A stretch of 37,270 bases of DNA. It comes from Helicobacteraceae bacterium (GTDB lineage Bacteria; Campylobacterota; Campylobacteria; Campylobacterales; SZUA-545). The stretch's first letter is position 1; every line of letters begins with the position of its first letter. The stretch spans positions 1 through 37,270 of the forward strand of contig JAISOU010000043.1 of NCBI GenBank assembly GCA_031275395.1. The letters run 5' to 3'. Positions 23,783 through 32,616 of the stretch are shown here, one piece after another. The translations under genes were made by a program, and so were the position numbers. The notes under the pieces were generated by a model. It was not told the DNA's origin and searched no databases. It was given only the letters and a program-made list of their open reading frames with translations.

Positions 23783-23932
23783 GTCTTTGCGCAAGTCCGT
23801 AACCTTTGGCGCTCTGGACGGTTTTGAACAAGGTATTTTACGGGAGTTTTCCAACCTAAGCCGCGACGGGGTTTTGACTTACTAAGAGGCGTTTTTAACG
23901 TTTTGGGGTATCTTGCATTATAATCGATAAAT

Positions 23933-24120
23933 CAAACGAGGTCGCCAAAAACGGCTTTTGCGTTTTGGGCTAAGTCAGCCATAAGTCTATTAAACGCTTC
24001 TATATCCGTAAAGAGTAAATCCTCGCAGTAATATAGAATCGCTCCCGTATAGTCCTATTGAACCTTCCGACGCTTTTGCGATATCCCGCGCCCGCTACTT
24101 TCCCGAAGCGCTAGGCGCTT
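23933..24120 (-). pseudogene. Unrecognised ORF remnant beside the CRISPR array
   Basis: The minus strand reads S-G-R-G-I-S-Q-K-R-R-K-V-Q, one TAG, then about 40 codons (D-Y-T-G-A-I-L-Y-Y-C-E-D-L-L-F-T-D-I-E-A and on to V-F-G-D-L-V-stop). The amino-acid mix looks protein-like, but there is no start codon, no ribosome site and no family I recognise. It may be the tail of a gene cut by events at the old end of the array. The rest of the 400-base gap (23783-23932) shows nothing I can name. Confidence 0.25.
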
Positions 24121-24130
24121 CCTTCAAAAG

Positions 24131-27100
24131 TGTCGCGCCCCCTCTGTCATCCCTATATGCTATAATTTATAGCGAAGGTCGCAAAATGATCGCTAAGTTA
24201 TAGGATCCGCTGTCATCCCTATATGCTATAATCTCCAACCATTCGCCGCGTCGTAGATCGGGGTTATAGGATCCGCTGTCATCCCTATATGCTATAATCT
24301 CATAAAAGCGTATAAATACACCGCCGCGAGTTATAGGATCCGCTGTCATCCCTATATGCTATAATTTATTGCCCTCCCTAAATATAACAATTGTTGTTAT
24401 AGGATCCGCTGTCATCCCTATATGCTATAATTGTCCAGTATTTTCATTCGATAAAATGCGGGTTATAGGATCCGCTGTCATCCCTATATGCTATAATATG
24501 TCGAGTTCGCCCAAGATAATGCGATCTGTTATAGGATCCGCTGTCATCCCTATATGCTATAATACGCGGCGATATTGGTGCAGTCTTTTGTTAGTTATAG
24601 GATCCGCTGTCATCCCTATATGCTATAATCTATCGCAAGCGCTATATGAGCAACTGCATGTTATAGGATCCGCTGTCATCCCTATATGCTATAATCTCCA
24701 ACCATTCGCCGCGTCGTAGATCGGCGTTATAGGATCCGCTGTCATCCCTATATGCTATAATCGCGCTTGCTGACGCTACAATAAAAGGGTAGTTATAGGA
24801 TCCGCTGTCATCCCTATATGCTATAATAAAAACAGACCGCTACAGCAAAATCTCCGAGTTATAGGATCCGCTGTCATCCCTATATGCTATAATCTAAAAC
24901 GCTTAGATTTCTATCCACATTGAGTTATAGGATCCGCTGTCATCCCTATATGCTATAATATTCTTCGGGTTTTATAACGCCTTCGGGCGGTTATAGGATC
25001 CGCTGTCATCCCTATATGCTATAATTAGTTTGCCGCTTTTGTGGGGTATTCCAGCGTTATAGGATCCGCTGTCATCCCTATATGCTATAATTATCTAGCG
25101 CGACGGCAAACTCCGTAGAGTGTTATAGGATCCGCTGTCATCCCTATATGCTATAATCGGACGATTGCGTATACGGCTATCGCGAGCGTTATAGGATCCG
25201 CTGTCATCCCTATATGCTATAATTGGATACGTGCATAATGTTAGGCGTTAACGGTTATAGGATCCGCTGTCATCCCTATATGCTATAATCGGTTCGATAT
25301 GATTATAGAACACACAATGGTTATAGGATCCGCTGTCATCCCTATATGCTATAATTAAGCCGCCTCTACAATAGGCGCTCATCTGGTTATAGGATCCGCT
25401 GTCATCCCTATATGCTATAATCGGAATTAGAGTTAAATAATGATTAGGCTAGTTATAGGATCCGCTGTCATCCCTATATGCTATAATCGGAATTATTTGG
25501 CGCGAGAGCTGGAGTTGGTTATAGGATCCGCTGTCATCCCTATATGCTATAATCGATAATATATACCCTTTCGCGGTTTTGCGGTTATAGGATCCGCTGT
25601 CATCCCTATATGCTATAATATAGCGCGCGCGCGTTAGTAGCGCAGAATAGTTATAGGATCCGCTGTCATCCCTATATGCTATAATTCCTGCTCCTGCTAC
25701 TGCTCAATGCTACTAGTTATAGGATCCGCTGTCATCCCTATATGCTATAATTCTGGTTTAATCGCGTACCTTGCGATGATTGTTATAGGATCCGCTGTCA
25801 TCCCTATATGCTATAATGAGCAGGAGAGGGCAGAAAAGGAAAAACAGTTATAGGATCCGCTGTCATCCCTATATGCTATAATGCTACGGACGCGATCAAA
25901 AACCTATTTAAGTTATAGGATCCGCTGTCATCCCTATATGCTATAATTACGTGATTGGCGGTAAAAACAAACCGTCGGTTATAGGATCCGCTGTCATCCC
26001 TATATGCTATAATGACAAAAACTAAAAGAGAAATTAAACCATAGTTATAGGATCCGCTGTCATCCCTATATGCTATAATGAAACTGATCTCCTTAGGCTT
26101 AAGCGTGAAGTTATAGGATCCGCTGTCATCCCTATATGCTATAATGCGAAAGCCGCTCACGCCAAAAGCGTGGGAGTTATAGGATCCGCTGTCATCCCTA
26201 TATGCTATAATCGATACACGCCCGACTATTAACGCCCGACGGTTATAGGATCCGCTGTCATCCCTATATGCTATAATCGAACGCGCCGCCGTTAGCGCGG
26301 AATTATTGTTATAGGATCCGCTGTCATCCCTATATGCTATAATTCGGCGGCGCTGGCGTTAGGCTCGCCGCTGGTTATAGGATCCGCTGTCATCCCTATA
26401 TGCTATAATAGTAGCTCATCTAAATAAGGCTTTGGCGCGGTTATAGGATCCGCTGTCATCCCTATATGCTATAATTTTGAAAGCTTTTGGTAATAGGTTT
26501 ACAGAGTTATAGGATCCGCTGTCATCCCTATATGCTATAATCGCCGATTGCGCCAAGTTTCTACCTATCGCGTTATAGGATCCGCTGTCATCCCTATATG
26601 CTATAATGCTCGTCGCGAAATCATAATCGCGTTTATCGTTATAGGATCCGCTGTCATCCCTATATGCTATAATAATCTTTTGCAGAACAGAGTACTGGAT
26701 GGTGTTATAGGATCCGCTGTCATCCCTATATGCTATAATACGCGAGGAATTATTAAGCTAATAAAAAGTGTTATAGGATCCGCTGTCATCCCTATATGCT
26801 ATAATATCGTAGTCCATAGCCTGCGACATACTTTCGTTATAGGATCCGCTGTCATCCCTATATGCTATAATCCTAAATATGAATCTAACCCCAAAAGAGA
26901 TGTTATAGGATCCGCTGTCATCCCTATATGCTATAATCCGAAGACGATAAACTCGTCGTTTATCGCGGTTATAGGATCCGCTGTCATCCCTATATGCTAT
27001 AATCGAAACAGGCGGAGCGATTAGAGCGCTGATGTTATAGGATCCGCTGTCATCCCTATATGCTATAATGTTGTTACCTAGACAGCGGCGATCAATATAG

Positions 27101-27927
27101 TTATAGGATCCGCTGTCATCCCTATATGCTATAATAATTGAGAGCTAAGCCTACGGCGTGGATCGGTTATAGGATCCGCTGTCATCCCTATATGCTATAA
27201 TTGCGAGATGGCATTCCGTCAGTTGTTAATTGTTATAGGATCCGCTGTCATCCCTATATGCTATAATGATGAAAGAGGACGATCGCGGATTATACATGTT
27301 ATAGGATCCGCTGTCATCCCTATATGCTATAATGCGATTTGTCCTCTACGGCAAACAGATCGGGTTATAGGATCCGCTGTCATCCCTATATGCTATAATG
27401 CCATTCGCAAACTGGCCAAAGCGGGTAAGGTTATAGGATCCGCTGTCATCCCTATATGCTATAATATGAGCAAAGCCGTCGCGTATAACGCTATCGTTAT
27501 AGGATCCGCTGTCATCCCTATATGCTATAATTAGACGAAAGCGTTAAGGCGAGCGAAGAGTGTTATAGGATCCGCTGTCATCCCTATATGCTATAATAAG
27601 TCGTTTGGAAAGTCGTTTGGTAAGTCGGTTATAGGATCCGCTGTCATCCCTATATGCTATAATGTTTTTTGGAAATTGAACAGCGTTCATTTTGTTATAG
27701 GATCCGCTGTCATCCCTATATGCTATAATATTCGACGGCGAAAAACACGCCATTTTCGTGTTATAGGATCCGCTGTCATCCCTATATGCTATAATAGCTC
27801 GCCGCCCGTAATATCGACTATCTATGTTATAGGATCCGCTGTCATCCCTATATGCTATAATCAAGAAAAAATCTCACGTGGTATCAGTCGCGTTATAGGA
27901 TCCGCTGTCATCCCTATATGCTATAAT
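24131..27927 (+). CRISPR. Type II-C CRISPR array, 58 repeats and 57 spacers
   Basis: The repeat is 36 bases, begins GTTATAGGATCCGCTG and ends ATGCTATAAT. By direct count there are 58 repeats and 57 spacers: 54 spacers of 30 bases, one of 31 (24299-24329) and two of 29 (25818-25846 and 25883-25911). Repeats 2-58 appear identical; repeat 1 (24131-24166) keeps the 3' part but its first ten bases are unrelated. Each repeat ends in TGCTATAAT, a perfect extended -10, so each spacer can be transcribed from its own promoter on the plus strand, as in Neisseria type II-C arrays. The orientation (spacer then repeat in the crRNA) is supported by pairing of the repeat with the tracrRNA at 32.5 kb. Spacers 2 and 9 are duplicates except for the last base. 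Spacer 41 encodes a tyrosine-recombinase motif. Confidence 0.98.
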
Positions 27928-27939
27928 GCCTTGCCGACA

Positions 27940-27977
27940 AATCCGCTCCTAGACTACTCTGGGAGCGGATTATTTTT
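27940..27977 (+). terminator. Terminator at the cas2 end of the array
   Basis: Stem AATCCGCTCC / GGAGCGGATT, loop of about 12 bases, then ATTTTT on the plus strand, 12 bases after the last repeat. It would stop the many repeat-driven transcripts before they run antisense through cas2, cas1 and cas9. New-spacer insertion in II-C systems is thought to occur at this end, so the A/T-rich stretch just beyond may be part of the leader. Confidence 0.7.
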
Positions 27978-28379: not shown

Positions 28380-29282
28380 TTAAGACTCTACAAAATGCGC
28401 CTCTGTTCCCAACAATATCGGTGCTTCCAATATTTCTTCCTTATTTGCATAGAGTCTAACCAAGCTTTCTACGACAAAATCGATCGCGTTTATAGCCGCG
28501 GTTTTTCCATTAGACATTTGAACGTCCGCATTCAGGAGCGTAACCAACGCGGCTTTCTCGGGCGCGTTAAAACTACGATTTTTCGCGAAAATTTCTTTAG
28601 CTACCCATAGATCGACAATAGGTCGAAACGGCTCGATCAAATCGTCGGCAAGATTAAAGGCGTTTAACTCGCTATGGTGAAAAAGTCCAAGCTCCGGATT
28701 TAAGCCGTGCGCTACTAAATTTCTAGCGATCGCGCCGCGAAAAATCGCGTAGCCAAAGTTAAGAGCAGAGTTAATCGCGTTTTCATTTCTACGATTAAAA
28801 TGATCGCCAAAAAGCTCCGCGAAATAAAAACTTGCCGCTTGCGATTCCATATTATCCGCGTCTGCCGATCGAACCTTTTCGGACATAACAAATAGACGAT
28901 CGGCATTTTTACCCATTAGCGCCAAAGTCTTAGCCTGATTTATAATTTTAGCTTTAACGATCGACGCCCAAGCGCGTTTTGCGATCGGCTTTGCAACATT
29001 TAATTGTAAACGCAACATTTTTGACGTTCTGCTAAAGGCGCTAAACGGCAGAAAAACGCCGTTTGGCAAACCGTTTTCGGCGGTAGAAAAGAGCGCTATT
29101 CCATACTCGCTACAAGCGCTCAATACGGGATGGGTAATTGTTATTTGACGATGATTTAAGATGATGACGGCAATATCTTCAAACGACACGGTTGCGTTTT
29201 TATCTTCTTGCGCGATCGACAGCGCAAAATGATCCCGCGAAAGTCTGGCGGGAGCGCTTATCATTACGCTACGCCAACCCAC
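28380..29282 (-). CDS. cas1: CRISPR-associated integrase Cas1
   Basis: Catalytic subunit of spacer acquisition, 300 residues. Metal ligands are visible as Glu146 in N-M-E-S-Q-A-A, a histidine in L-G-L-F-H-H-S-E, and the acidic patch in L-A-D-D-L-I-E-P-F-R-P. The GTG at 29282 is chosen because M-G-W-R-S-V-M-I-S matches the usual type II Cas1 beginning. It overlaps the cas9 stop by 14 bases. No cas4 or csn2 is present, which makes the locus type II-C. Confidence 0.95.
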   Translation of the reverse strand: MGWRSVMISAPARLSRDHFALSIAQEDKNATVSFEDIAVIILNHRQITITHPVLSACSEYGIALFSTAENGLPNGVFLPFSAFSRTSKMLRLQLNVAKPIAKRAWASIVKAKIINQAKTLALMGKNADRLFVMSEKVRSADADNMESQAASFYFAELFGDHFNRRNENAINSALNFGYAIFRGAIARNLVAHGLNPELGLFHHSELNAFNLADDLIEPFRPIVDLWVAKEIFAKNRSFNAPEKAALVTLLNADVQMSNGKTAAINAIDFVVESLVRLYANKEEILEAPILLGTEAHFVES

Positions 29283-32200: not shown

Positions 32201-32478
32201 TCGCTCGGCTTTAACTCTTTGAAAAATTGCTTGCTATCGATAACGCCGCTTCGCTTTAGTAAGCGCGTCAATTTCGTAAGCCGCCATGCGCGATTATGAA
32301 GTCTGTGGCGCATTAGACGCGCGTTGCGTCGAATTAAATTGAGGCTTTCGCCCTCCTTGTCCGTTTCGGCTTTATCAAAGGCGCGAACGCCTAAACCCAA
32401 AATATTACCCTCGCCGATAACGCACCAGCCTACGCTCGCAATCCCAATATCCAGCCCCAAACGATACTCCGCTCTCAT
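29269..32478 (-). CDS. cas9: Cas9 endonuclease, type II-C
   Basis: RNA-guided DNA nuclease of about 1069 residues, a compact size like the Neisseria and Campylobacter enzymes. RuvC-I has Asp10 in L-G-L-D-I-G-I-A-S-V-G-W; an arginine-rich bridge helix follows (R-R-N-A-R-L-M-R-H-R); RuvC-II has Glu502 in H-I-E-M-A-R-D-L; the HNH nuclease has His584 in I-D-H-I-L-P-Y-S; RuvC-III has His722 and Asp725 in H-H-A-L-D-A-S. All catalytic residues are intact. The ATG at 32478 is preferred: AAGGAAAG precedes it and the protein then starts seven residues before the RuvC-I strand. An ATG seven codons upstream (32499) lacks a ribosome site. The PAM cannot be read from the sequence. Codon use resembles the neighbouring housekeeping genes, so the locus is not obviously recent. 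Confidence 0.98.
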   Translation of the reverse strand: MRAEYRLGLDIGIASVGWCVIGEGNILGLGVRAFDKAETDKEGESLNLIRRNARLMRHRLHNRAWRLTKLTRLLKRSGVIDSKQFFKELKPSDSTWLLRVKALDYALDRGEFARIVYHICKHRGFYWTSKAESENKDNGDVKEALSKNAELMKDKGYRTVAEMILREFPQAQRNKDKEYDKALSRVLLGEELKTIFEKQRSLGAAFASKELQTAILGNGDCKSGLFWSQKQSLSGEKLLEMTGRCVFEKEEYRAPKYSFCAERHVLLTRINNLRIIIDGKSRALNDREREVAIKTAYSYANCEMKYEQLRSALVKAKLLNDFSFSAVKGEKEKLVKLPATLALKKALKDRFNEIANNPDRFDSIAFVLTVYKEDNEKASQLRKLGLDEDIIEKLLPVSFKEFHHLSLTALRKILPFMERGDRYDEAVVKAGYKSHSDFSNEDEKQIYLPPLYKDRDKYGRLKFNDALDIPRNPVVLRALNQARKVLNTIVKKYGSSKSVHIEMARDLSRSLSERKEIERGQKEYRERNEREYGELRNKLGREPKAKEFEKWLLYKEQLCKCAYSVDKLDIDSVLGDKDYAQIDHILPYSRSFDNSKNNRVLVKTAENQKKGNKTPFEYFGHNEDHWRKFEEYVKNNHNFRKAKRDRLLRKDFDEKTAEGFKERNLNDTRYICRFFKNYVERFLKLADDSDAKRVVVLTGSLTAFLRARWGLTKERGESDRHHALDASVIAVCNHAMVKRLSDYARRRELEFIREGFVDPETGEIINSKAREAVENKFPYPWENFREELLCRLNEDDPHKLREKLIELGTPIEVAQNAKPLFVSRAPQRRNGGAAHKETIYAKTDQEGIIAQRVRLYDLKLSDIDKLVDQERNKPLYEAIRKRMEEFNGNAQKAFSEPFYKPSKDMSKAPIVRSVKKLDKMSGIAVRNGIAKNDTMLRVDIFAKHGRFYLIPVYVWHKAADLAPNRAIVAYKDEDEWTEIDKSFEFCFSLYPNDLVKVTQKDKTILGYYGSTNRSTGAVNIWSPDRDKKIGKDGEYQSIGIKTALSIEKFNVDCLGNIYPASKESRRGLA

Positions 32479-32507
32479 CGCCTTTCCTTCTTTAAGCATA
32501 ATTGTTC

Positions 32508-32513
32508 TATAAT
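32508..32513 (+). promoter_or_regulatory. -10 element of the tracrRNA promoter
   Basis: A perfect TATAAT, with transcription expected to start near 32520, just before the anti-repeat. No strong -35 is visible. It lies in the cas9 leader on the opposite strand, so the tracrRNA and cas9 transcripts diverge from a region of only about 40 bases. Confidence 0.6.
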
Positions 32514-32519
32514 TACAAT

Positions 32520-32616
32520 CGTAGCATATAAGGGATGACAGCCGCTGCTATAATAAGCGCGATTCGGAAGATTGCGCGTATCCGGCGGGGTTGGGTAAAA
32601 CCGCCCCGTCTTTTTA
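32520..32616 (+). ncRNA. tracrRNA
   Basis: The anti-repeat (about 32522-32554) pairs with the CRISPR repeat in two blocks. TAGCATATA and GGGATGACAGC match the repeat's 3' and central part, with one bulged A between them, and CTATAAT pairs with the repeat's first seven bases; five bases on each side form an internal loop. A hairpin follows (GCGCGA 32557-32562 with TTGCGC 32572-32577), then a G/C-rich hairpin (32584-32608, imperfect stem around GGCGG...CCGCC) and TTTTT at 32611-32615 as terminator. Expected length is about 95 nucleotides. The terminator U-run overlaps the dxr stop codon on the other strand. Confidence 0.85.

Follow-up and report, generated by a model that had tools for sequence, protein, structure and literature searches.

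Repeat-borne promoters were reportedly described by Zhang, in 2013, for the type II-C CRISPR systems of Neisseria. In Campylobacter jejuni, differential RNA-seq showed that each crRNA is started from the 3' part of the repeat that precedes it (Dugar 2013, PMC3656092); in the same account, about 89% of the mapped starts are associated with an extended -10 element of the form TGxTATAAT with no clear -35 element, one RNase III cut occurs inside the repeat, and the mature crRNAs measure about 38 nt. The locus considered here lies in a stretch of 37,270 nucleotides, hereafter the window, which corresponds to contig JAISOU010000043.1 of a Helicobacteraceae bacterium (assembly GCA_031275395.1) and has a G+C content of about 48%. 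It is a type II-C CRISPR-Cas9 locus, and it resembles that of C. jejuni, as described in PMC3656092, by its cas9-cas1-cas2 genes, its tracrRNA, a repeat with a -10 box in its 3' part and its affiliation to the same order. It differs by the number of repeats, 4 to 8 in the C. jejuni strains of PMC3656092 versus 58 here, and by the end of the repeat, which reads GGTAAAAT in C. jejuni and TGCTATAAT, the exact consensus, in the present array. With the type II-C systems of Neisseria it shares a similar repeat layout (GTTGTAG...TGCTACAAT as printed for N. lactamica in PMC4607530) and a Cas9 of similar length, whereas TACAAT replaces TATAAT in Neisseria, which belongs to another class of bacteria.

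The reading preferred here, to which a probability of about 0.93 is assigned, is that each repeat fulfills two functions: its 5' part would provide the tracrRNA/Cas9-binding handle of the crRNA from the preceding spacer, and its 3' end, TGCTATAAT, would drive the following spacer as an extended -10 promoter of the sigma-70 type. The array is a long but ordinary type II-C array, whose core reading, a probable one, follows a mechanism already published. Its particularities are its length, the exact consensus, and the gathering of 59 of the 127 genomic copies of the motif in one locus.

Organization of the CRISPR-Cas9 locus

The CRISPR array consists of 58 repeats of 36 nt, 57 of which are letter-identical copies of GTTATAGGATCCGCTGTCATCCCTATATGCTATAAT, and of 57 spacers of 30 nt (54 spacers), 29 nt (two) or 31 nt (one), so distributed that the 66-base spacing announced by an earlier note on this DNA is found in 54 of the 57 intervals. 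The crRNA strand was assigned from the pairing of the repeat with the tracrRNA strand (Table 1), and this assignment is therefore independent of the promoter motif. The array is convergent with the cas genes of the opposite strand and has a perfect last repeat and a degenerate first one, located at the transcription-proximal end, an arrangement already printed for type II-C systems (PMC4607530). Type II-C arrays are described as gaining spacers at the last repeat (PMC12080349; PMC12638026), and the tools used to orient them are reported to disagree (PMC12638026); by analogy, and with the perfect last and damaged first repeats as an indirect indication, acquisition would take place here at the cas2-side (3') end. 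No series of shared spacers was found.

The operon is organized in the order cas9-cas1-cas2, with cas1 adjoining cas2 and a DXP reductoisomerase gene beyond cas9, and contains neither csn2 nor cas4. The cas9 product scores 756.9 bits with the NCBIfam Cas9 model, and its closest solved chains, which we take to be those of the N. meningitidis enzyme, are Cas9 proteins aligned over nearly the full length, the best one over residues 4-1059. The RuvC and HNH parts are present, and the motifs LDIG, IDH...NN and HHALDA, those with the catalytic roles, are aligned. An alternative upstream ATG at 32499 figures in the list of open reading frames. The length of 1069 aa counted from the ATG at 32478 falls within the range of about 1,077 +/- 49 aa given for type II-C Cas9 (PMC4607530).

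The tracrRNA gene is located divergently upstream of cas9, and the duplex formed by its anti-repeat with the repeat reaches -42.0 kcal/mol, versus a mean of -13.0 (sd 3.9) for the background of the window, which gives no match in Rfam at the gathering thresholds. An RNase III is encoded in the genome. The anti-repeat also contains a copy of TGCTATAAT, which could start a short tracrRNA devoid of the anti-repeat or could be a by-product of the pairing with GTTATAG; relatives with a convincing tracrRNA mostly display NGCTATAAT or TACAAT at that position, the search, performed with the arrays masked, having yielded convincing tracrRNAs in only part of the relatives.

Table 1. Coordinates of the features of the CRISPR-Cas9 locus in the window.
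Feature	Position	Strand	Basis or remark
7-bp hairpin just before the first repeat, in the would-be guide of an extraneous crRNA	24105..24121	+	folding
CRISPR array (57 spacers between 58 repeats)	24131..27927	+ (crRNA strand)	strand deduced from tracrRNA pairing
First repeat, reduced to its promoter half: nt 14-36 preserved with the extended -10, nt 1-13 lost	24131..24166	+	repeat alignment
Extended -10 elements TGCTATAAT, n=58	first 24158..24166, last 27919-27927	+	motif scan
Spacer 6	24498-24527		VirB11-like ATPase gene, 29/30, mismatch at last base
Spacer 8	24630-24659		ORF of 132 aa without family, 30/30
Spacer 42	26872-26901		start of hslU adjoining the preceding gene, 30/30
Spacer 43	26938-26967		atpD, 30/30
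Terminator downstream of the last repeat (14-bp stem followed by ATTTTT)	27940..27977	+	folding, z -5.53
cas2, 106 aa	27992..28312	-	profile searches, PADLOC
cas1, 300 aa, type II (NMENI) family	28380..29282	-	NCBIfam 278 bits, PADLOC
cas9, 1069 aa	29269..32478	-	Pfam, NCBIfam, PADLOC
Probable tracrRNA -10, TATAAT	32508..32513	+	sequence
tracrRNA gene: anti-repeat (~32521-32554), stem-loop, terminator ending CTTTTT	32520..32615	+	ends inferred from sequence
TGCTATAAT within the tracrRNA anti-repeat	32546..32554	+	motif scan

The motif terminating the repeats

The 58 extended -10 elements pointing into the following spacers, on which the earlier note was built, are all found at their exact coordinates, TGCTATAAT terminating 58 of 58 repeats on the + strand, and the sigma-70 -10 sequence gnTAnaaT at the 3' end of the repeat, a type II-C trait, is accordingly present. 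The window contains 60 copies of TGNTATAAT, 58 of them at repeat ends on the + strand, compared with a mean of 1.37 (sd 1.16, largest value 6) in 100 shuffled windows, but this excess results from the copying of the repeat and is not independent evidence for 58 selected sites. Throughout the genome (2.08 Mb), 127 TGNTATAAT sites occur versus 116 for a reversed-motif control, and the 59 sites of the CRISPR locus comprise the repeat ends and the tracrRNA copy. Beyond the locus, 38 sites were examined among the matches listed: 19 are located outside open reading frames, 13 of them with the start of a same-strand open reading frame at 400 nt or less, and, as non-ORF sequence makes up 10.4% of the window once the array is set aside (binomial p 1e-9), the motif is concentrated in the regions that hold promoters. 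The remaining 19 of the 38 sites listed lie inside open reading frames, so that the motif alone is insufficient to make a promoter and its occurrences include chance hits. The sequence gives no confirmation of the strength that the earlier note ascribed to these promoters. At the repeat ends, no -35 partner passes the bipartite sigma-70 scan (10 in total in the region versus 15.3 expected), and nucleotides 6-8 of the spacers display no purine preference (53 of 57, versus about 51 predicted from composition). By analogy, the repeat-end motif is the housekeeping promoter type of the order.

The repeats were also compared with those of relatives, which are not independent of one another. One search returned 53 cas9-bearing genomes out of 298 of the order, and further searches added more; 101 sequences, namely the window and 100 loci designated by L numbers, were scanned, of which 26 have no array, and 79 arrays were found, from which that of L068, whose repeat is not of type II, and a coding repeat at L170 were dropped. 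Among the 57 distinct repeats, 56 have 36 nt, the 35-nt repeat of L166 being excluded from the counts. Residues T31, A32, A34 and T36, which correspond to -12T, -11A, -9A and -7T, are invariant in 56 of 56, the TG is kept in 45, and TGNTATAAT is perfect in 13. PMC4607530 prints for C. jejuni the very repeat of L060, a relative from the same order, and the order is accordingly taken to be Campylobacterales. Among named genomes, a Cas9 search led only to three distant loci of Alphaproteobacteria (L039-L041), the repeats of which have no TATAAT end.

These comparisons bear on another interpretation, according to which type II repeats are terminally palindromic (GTTATAG...CTATAAT) and the TATAAT end, as one arm of the palindrome, merely serves the Cas1-Cas2 integrase and the pairing with the tracrRNA, with transcription coming from upstream. 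The two arms mirror each other here and in most relatives, the same TGCTATAAT exists in the tracrRNA anti-repeat, and a candidate promoter, TTAACG-18-TATAAT, occurs on the + strand at 23895-23924, about 200 bases before the array. However, it is at the -7 base that the two arms diverge: a T occupies the promoter end in 56 of 56 distinct repeats, whereas the 5' arm, read on the other strand, ends with C in 54 and with T in only two, and the palindrome is therefore broken precisely at this base. Because the relatives' repeats were oriented with a score that relied in part on their promoter end, T36 in 56 of 56 is partly so by construction, and the weight of the argument consequently rests on the contrast between the two ends. 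Furthermore, L062 and L074 possess non-mirrored arms (GTTTTAG...CTATAAT) and yet keep TANAAT, type II-A repeats end in C without the -7T and -12T, a contrast with type II-C already printed in PMC4607530, and the first repeat of the present array has kept its 3' end without the 5' arm. An end conserved as a palindrome arm only is thus considered very improbable.

The first repeat and the outer edges of the arrays

The nine mismatches of the first repeat are confined to nt 1-13, as would be expected from unrelated sequence there, and the 23 bases that follow are intact. The region 24085-24166, which includes the hairpin preceding this repeat, folds at -19.2 kcal/mol (z -2.68), and a different structure is preferred when 24100-24166 is folded alone (z -1.62). 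Mutations clustered in the first 15 nt, and the idea of an extra repeat that must keep its promoter, are both described in PMC12080349 (Feussner 2025), and the type II-C arrays of that study resemble the present one by these mutations, by an upstream hairpin and by an acquisition thought to occur at the last repeat; the loss of a block of 13 nt sets our array apart from those described there. In the same study the search for missed repeats was set above 70% identity, and the most eroded ones would have fallen outside it.

Among 74 arrays uncut at their 5' end, two contig-end arrays being excluded from the first-repeat counts, 36 have a changed first repeat, with 183 mismatches in nt 1-15, eight in nt 16-27 and four in nt 28-36; changes affect 2 of 76 last repeats and 12 of 1202 inner ones. 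The handle is lost in 17 of the 74 first repeats, with an intact hexamer in 17 of 17 (16 once identical rows are removed). Three further arrays (L078, L124 and L170) have kept little beyond the extended -10 at the correct spacing (3 of 73, versus 2 of 2505 control positions), in a search that required the promoter end and is therefore conditioned on it. Altogether, 20 of the 73 usable arrays, including the present one, have lost the handle end and kept the promoter end, and no first repeat retaining the handle without the promoter was found among these usable arrays; a first repeat holding an N belongs to the 74-array count and is left out of the 73-array counts. A limit of the erosion at nt 15 was considered and rejected, with one of 16 fitted boundaries beyond it and three arrays eroded further. 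In L134 and L174, which have the sole two changed last repeats, the pattern of the first repeats is mirrored: the promoter end is gone and the handle end remains.

Such half-lost first repeats could be explained either by selection or by neutral erosion. Selection would maintain the expression of the first spacer; a neutral erosion progressing from the outer edge of the array, with no selection for that expression, has in our opinion an even chance of being the right explanation. It agrees with the loss of the outer half in all 20 cases at the 5' end and in both cases at the 3' end, with 17 lightly mutated first repeats in which most changes concern nt 1-3, and with the fact that first repeats wholly lost are beyond recognition. 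The three arrays reduced to little more than the extended -10 argue against it, to the extent allowed by a search conditioned on that end.

Transcription of the array and matches of the spacers

For this array we infer the same behavior as in C. jejuni, including the start positions and the promoter strength. Transcription from each repeat would start about 7 nt into the 30-nt spacer, so that the guide would measure about 24 nt, and the transcript would cross the next repeat, where the tracrRNA would pair and RNase III would cut once. In the absence of any strong + strand terminator inside the array, read-through from unit to unit and nested co-terminal transcripts are expected, which would end at the terminator past the last repeat.

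As the earlier note had proposed, the crRNAs are probably initiated one by one from the repeats, for which dRNA-seq in C. jejuni is the precedent (PMC3656092). The 58 promoters exceed the 57 spacers, the 58th being directed into the terminator. The note also dispensed with extensive processing, which is likely reduced but hardly absent, in view of the single RNase III cut reported in C. jejuni (PMC3656092) and of the tracrRNA gene and RNase III found here. RNase III-processed 5' ends, which it regarded as the sign against individual starts, concern the wrong end of the molecule: in type II-C systems the 5' end is set by the start site, and the cut by RNase III takes place on the side of the repeat. 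As for the question that it raised on collisions of polymerases, all the promoters of the array are co-directional and no head-on collision would take place inside it; with promoters mostly 66 bp apart, the matter turns instead on occlusion and on polymerases held up by those ahead of them.

The claim that no leader promoter is needed is weakened by the candidate at 23895-23924, from which a further upstream start is possible. Both sources could even operate together, an upstream transcript spanning the array, to which the repeat promoters would add, with many crRNAs released by RNase III from long precursors. The candidate upstream promoter, the read-through expected across the array, and the presence of RNase III and of the tracrRNA are consistent with this combination, which is nevertheless held to be rather unlikely: the first repeat, devoid of a working handle and preceded by a hairpin, recalls those type II-C arrays in which a shield against transcription from outside is supposed (PMC12080349), and the C. 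jejuni precedent is one of individual starts (PMC3656092).

With initiation at each repeat, a more tentative proposal, which we consider doubtful, is that of a transcription ramp, in which read-through from the older units would add up so that the newest spacers would be represented in the largest number of transcripts without any leader promoter, the half-lost first repeat being a promoter-only cap that starts the ramp. It derives from the 58 co-directional promoters, the lack of a strong internal terminator and the presumed addition of spacers at the terminator end. Among the papers listed by literature searches on type II-C first repeats, array orientation or crRNA output, no title or opening of an abstract describes a type II-C array of this size or the idea of a ramp. 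Fifty-eight closely spaced promoters of the same direction would offer a good natural test bed for the sharing of polymerases, and the locus extends, at the level of sequence, the Campylobacter scheme of guide-RNA expression to a little-sampled family, represented by 14 species.

The whole array gave no protospacer match at E 0.1 among phages and plasmids, and exact patterns taken from pieces of spacers 2/9 and 57 with the repeat (3 of the 57 spacers) gave none in viral contigs, so that the PAM and the polarity are not readable from targets. Four of the 57 spacers match the genome of the host itself (Table 1), and Cas9, judged from its sequence, looks intact despite these self-matching spacers. 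Spacers 2 (24233-24262) and 9 (24696-24725) differ solely at their last, PAM-side base and were possibly acquired twice from the same target or from an escape variant of it.
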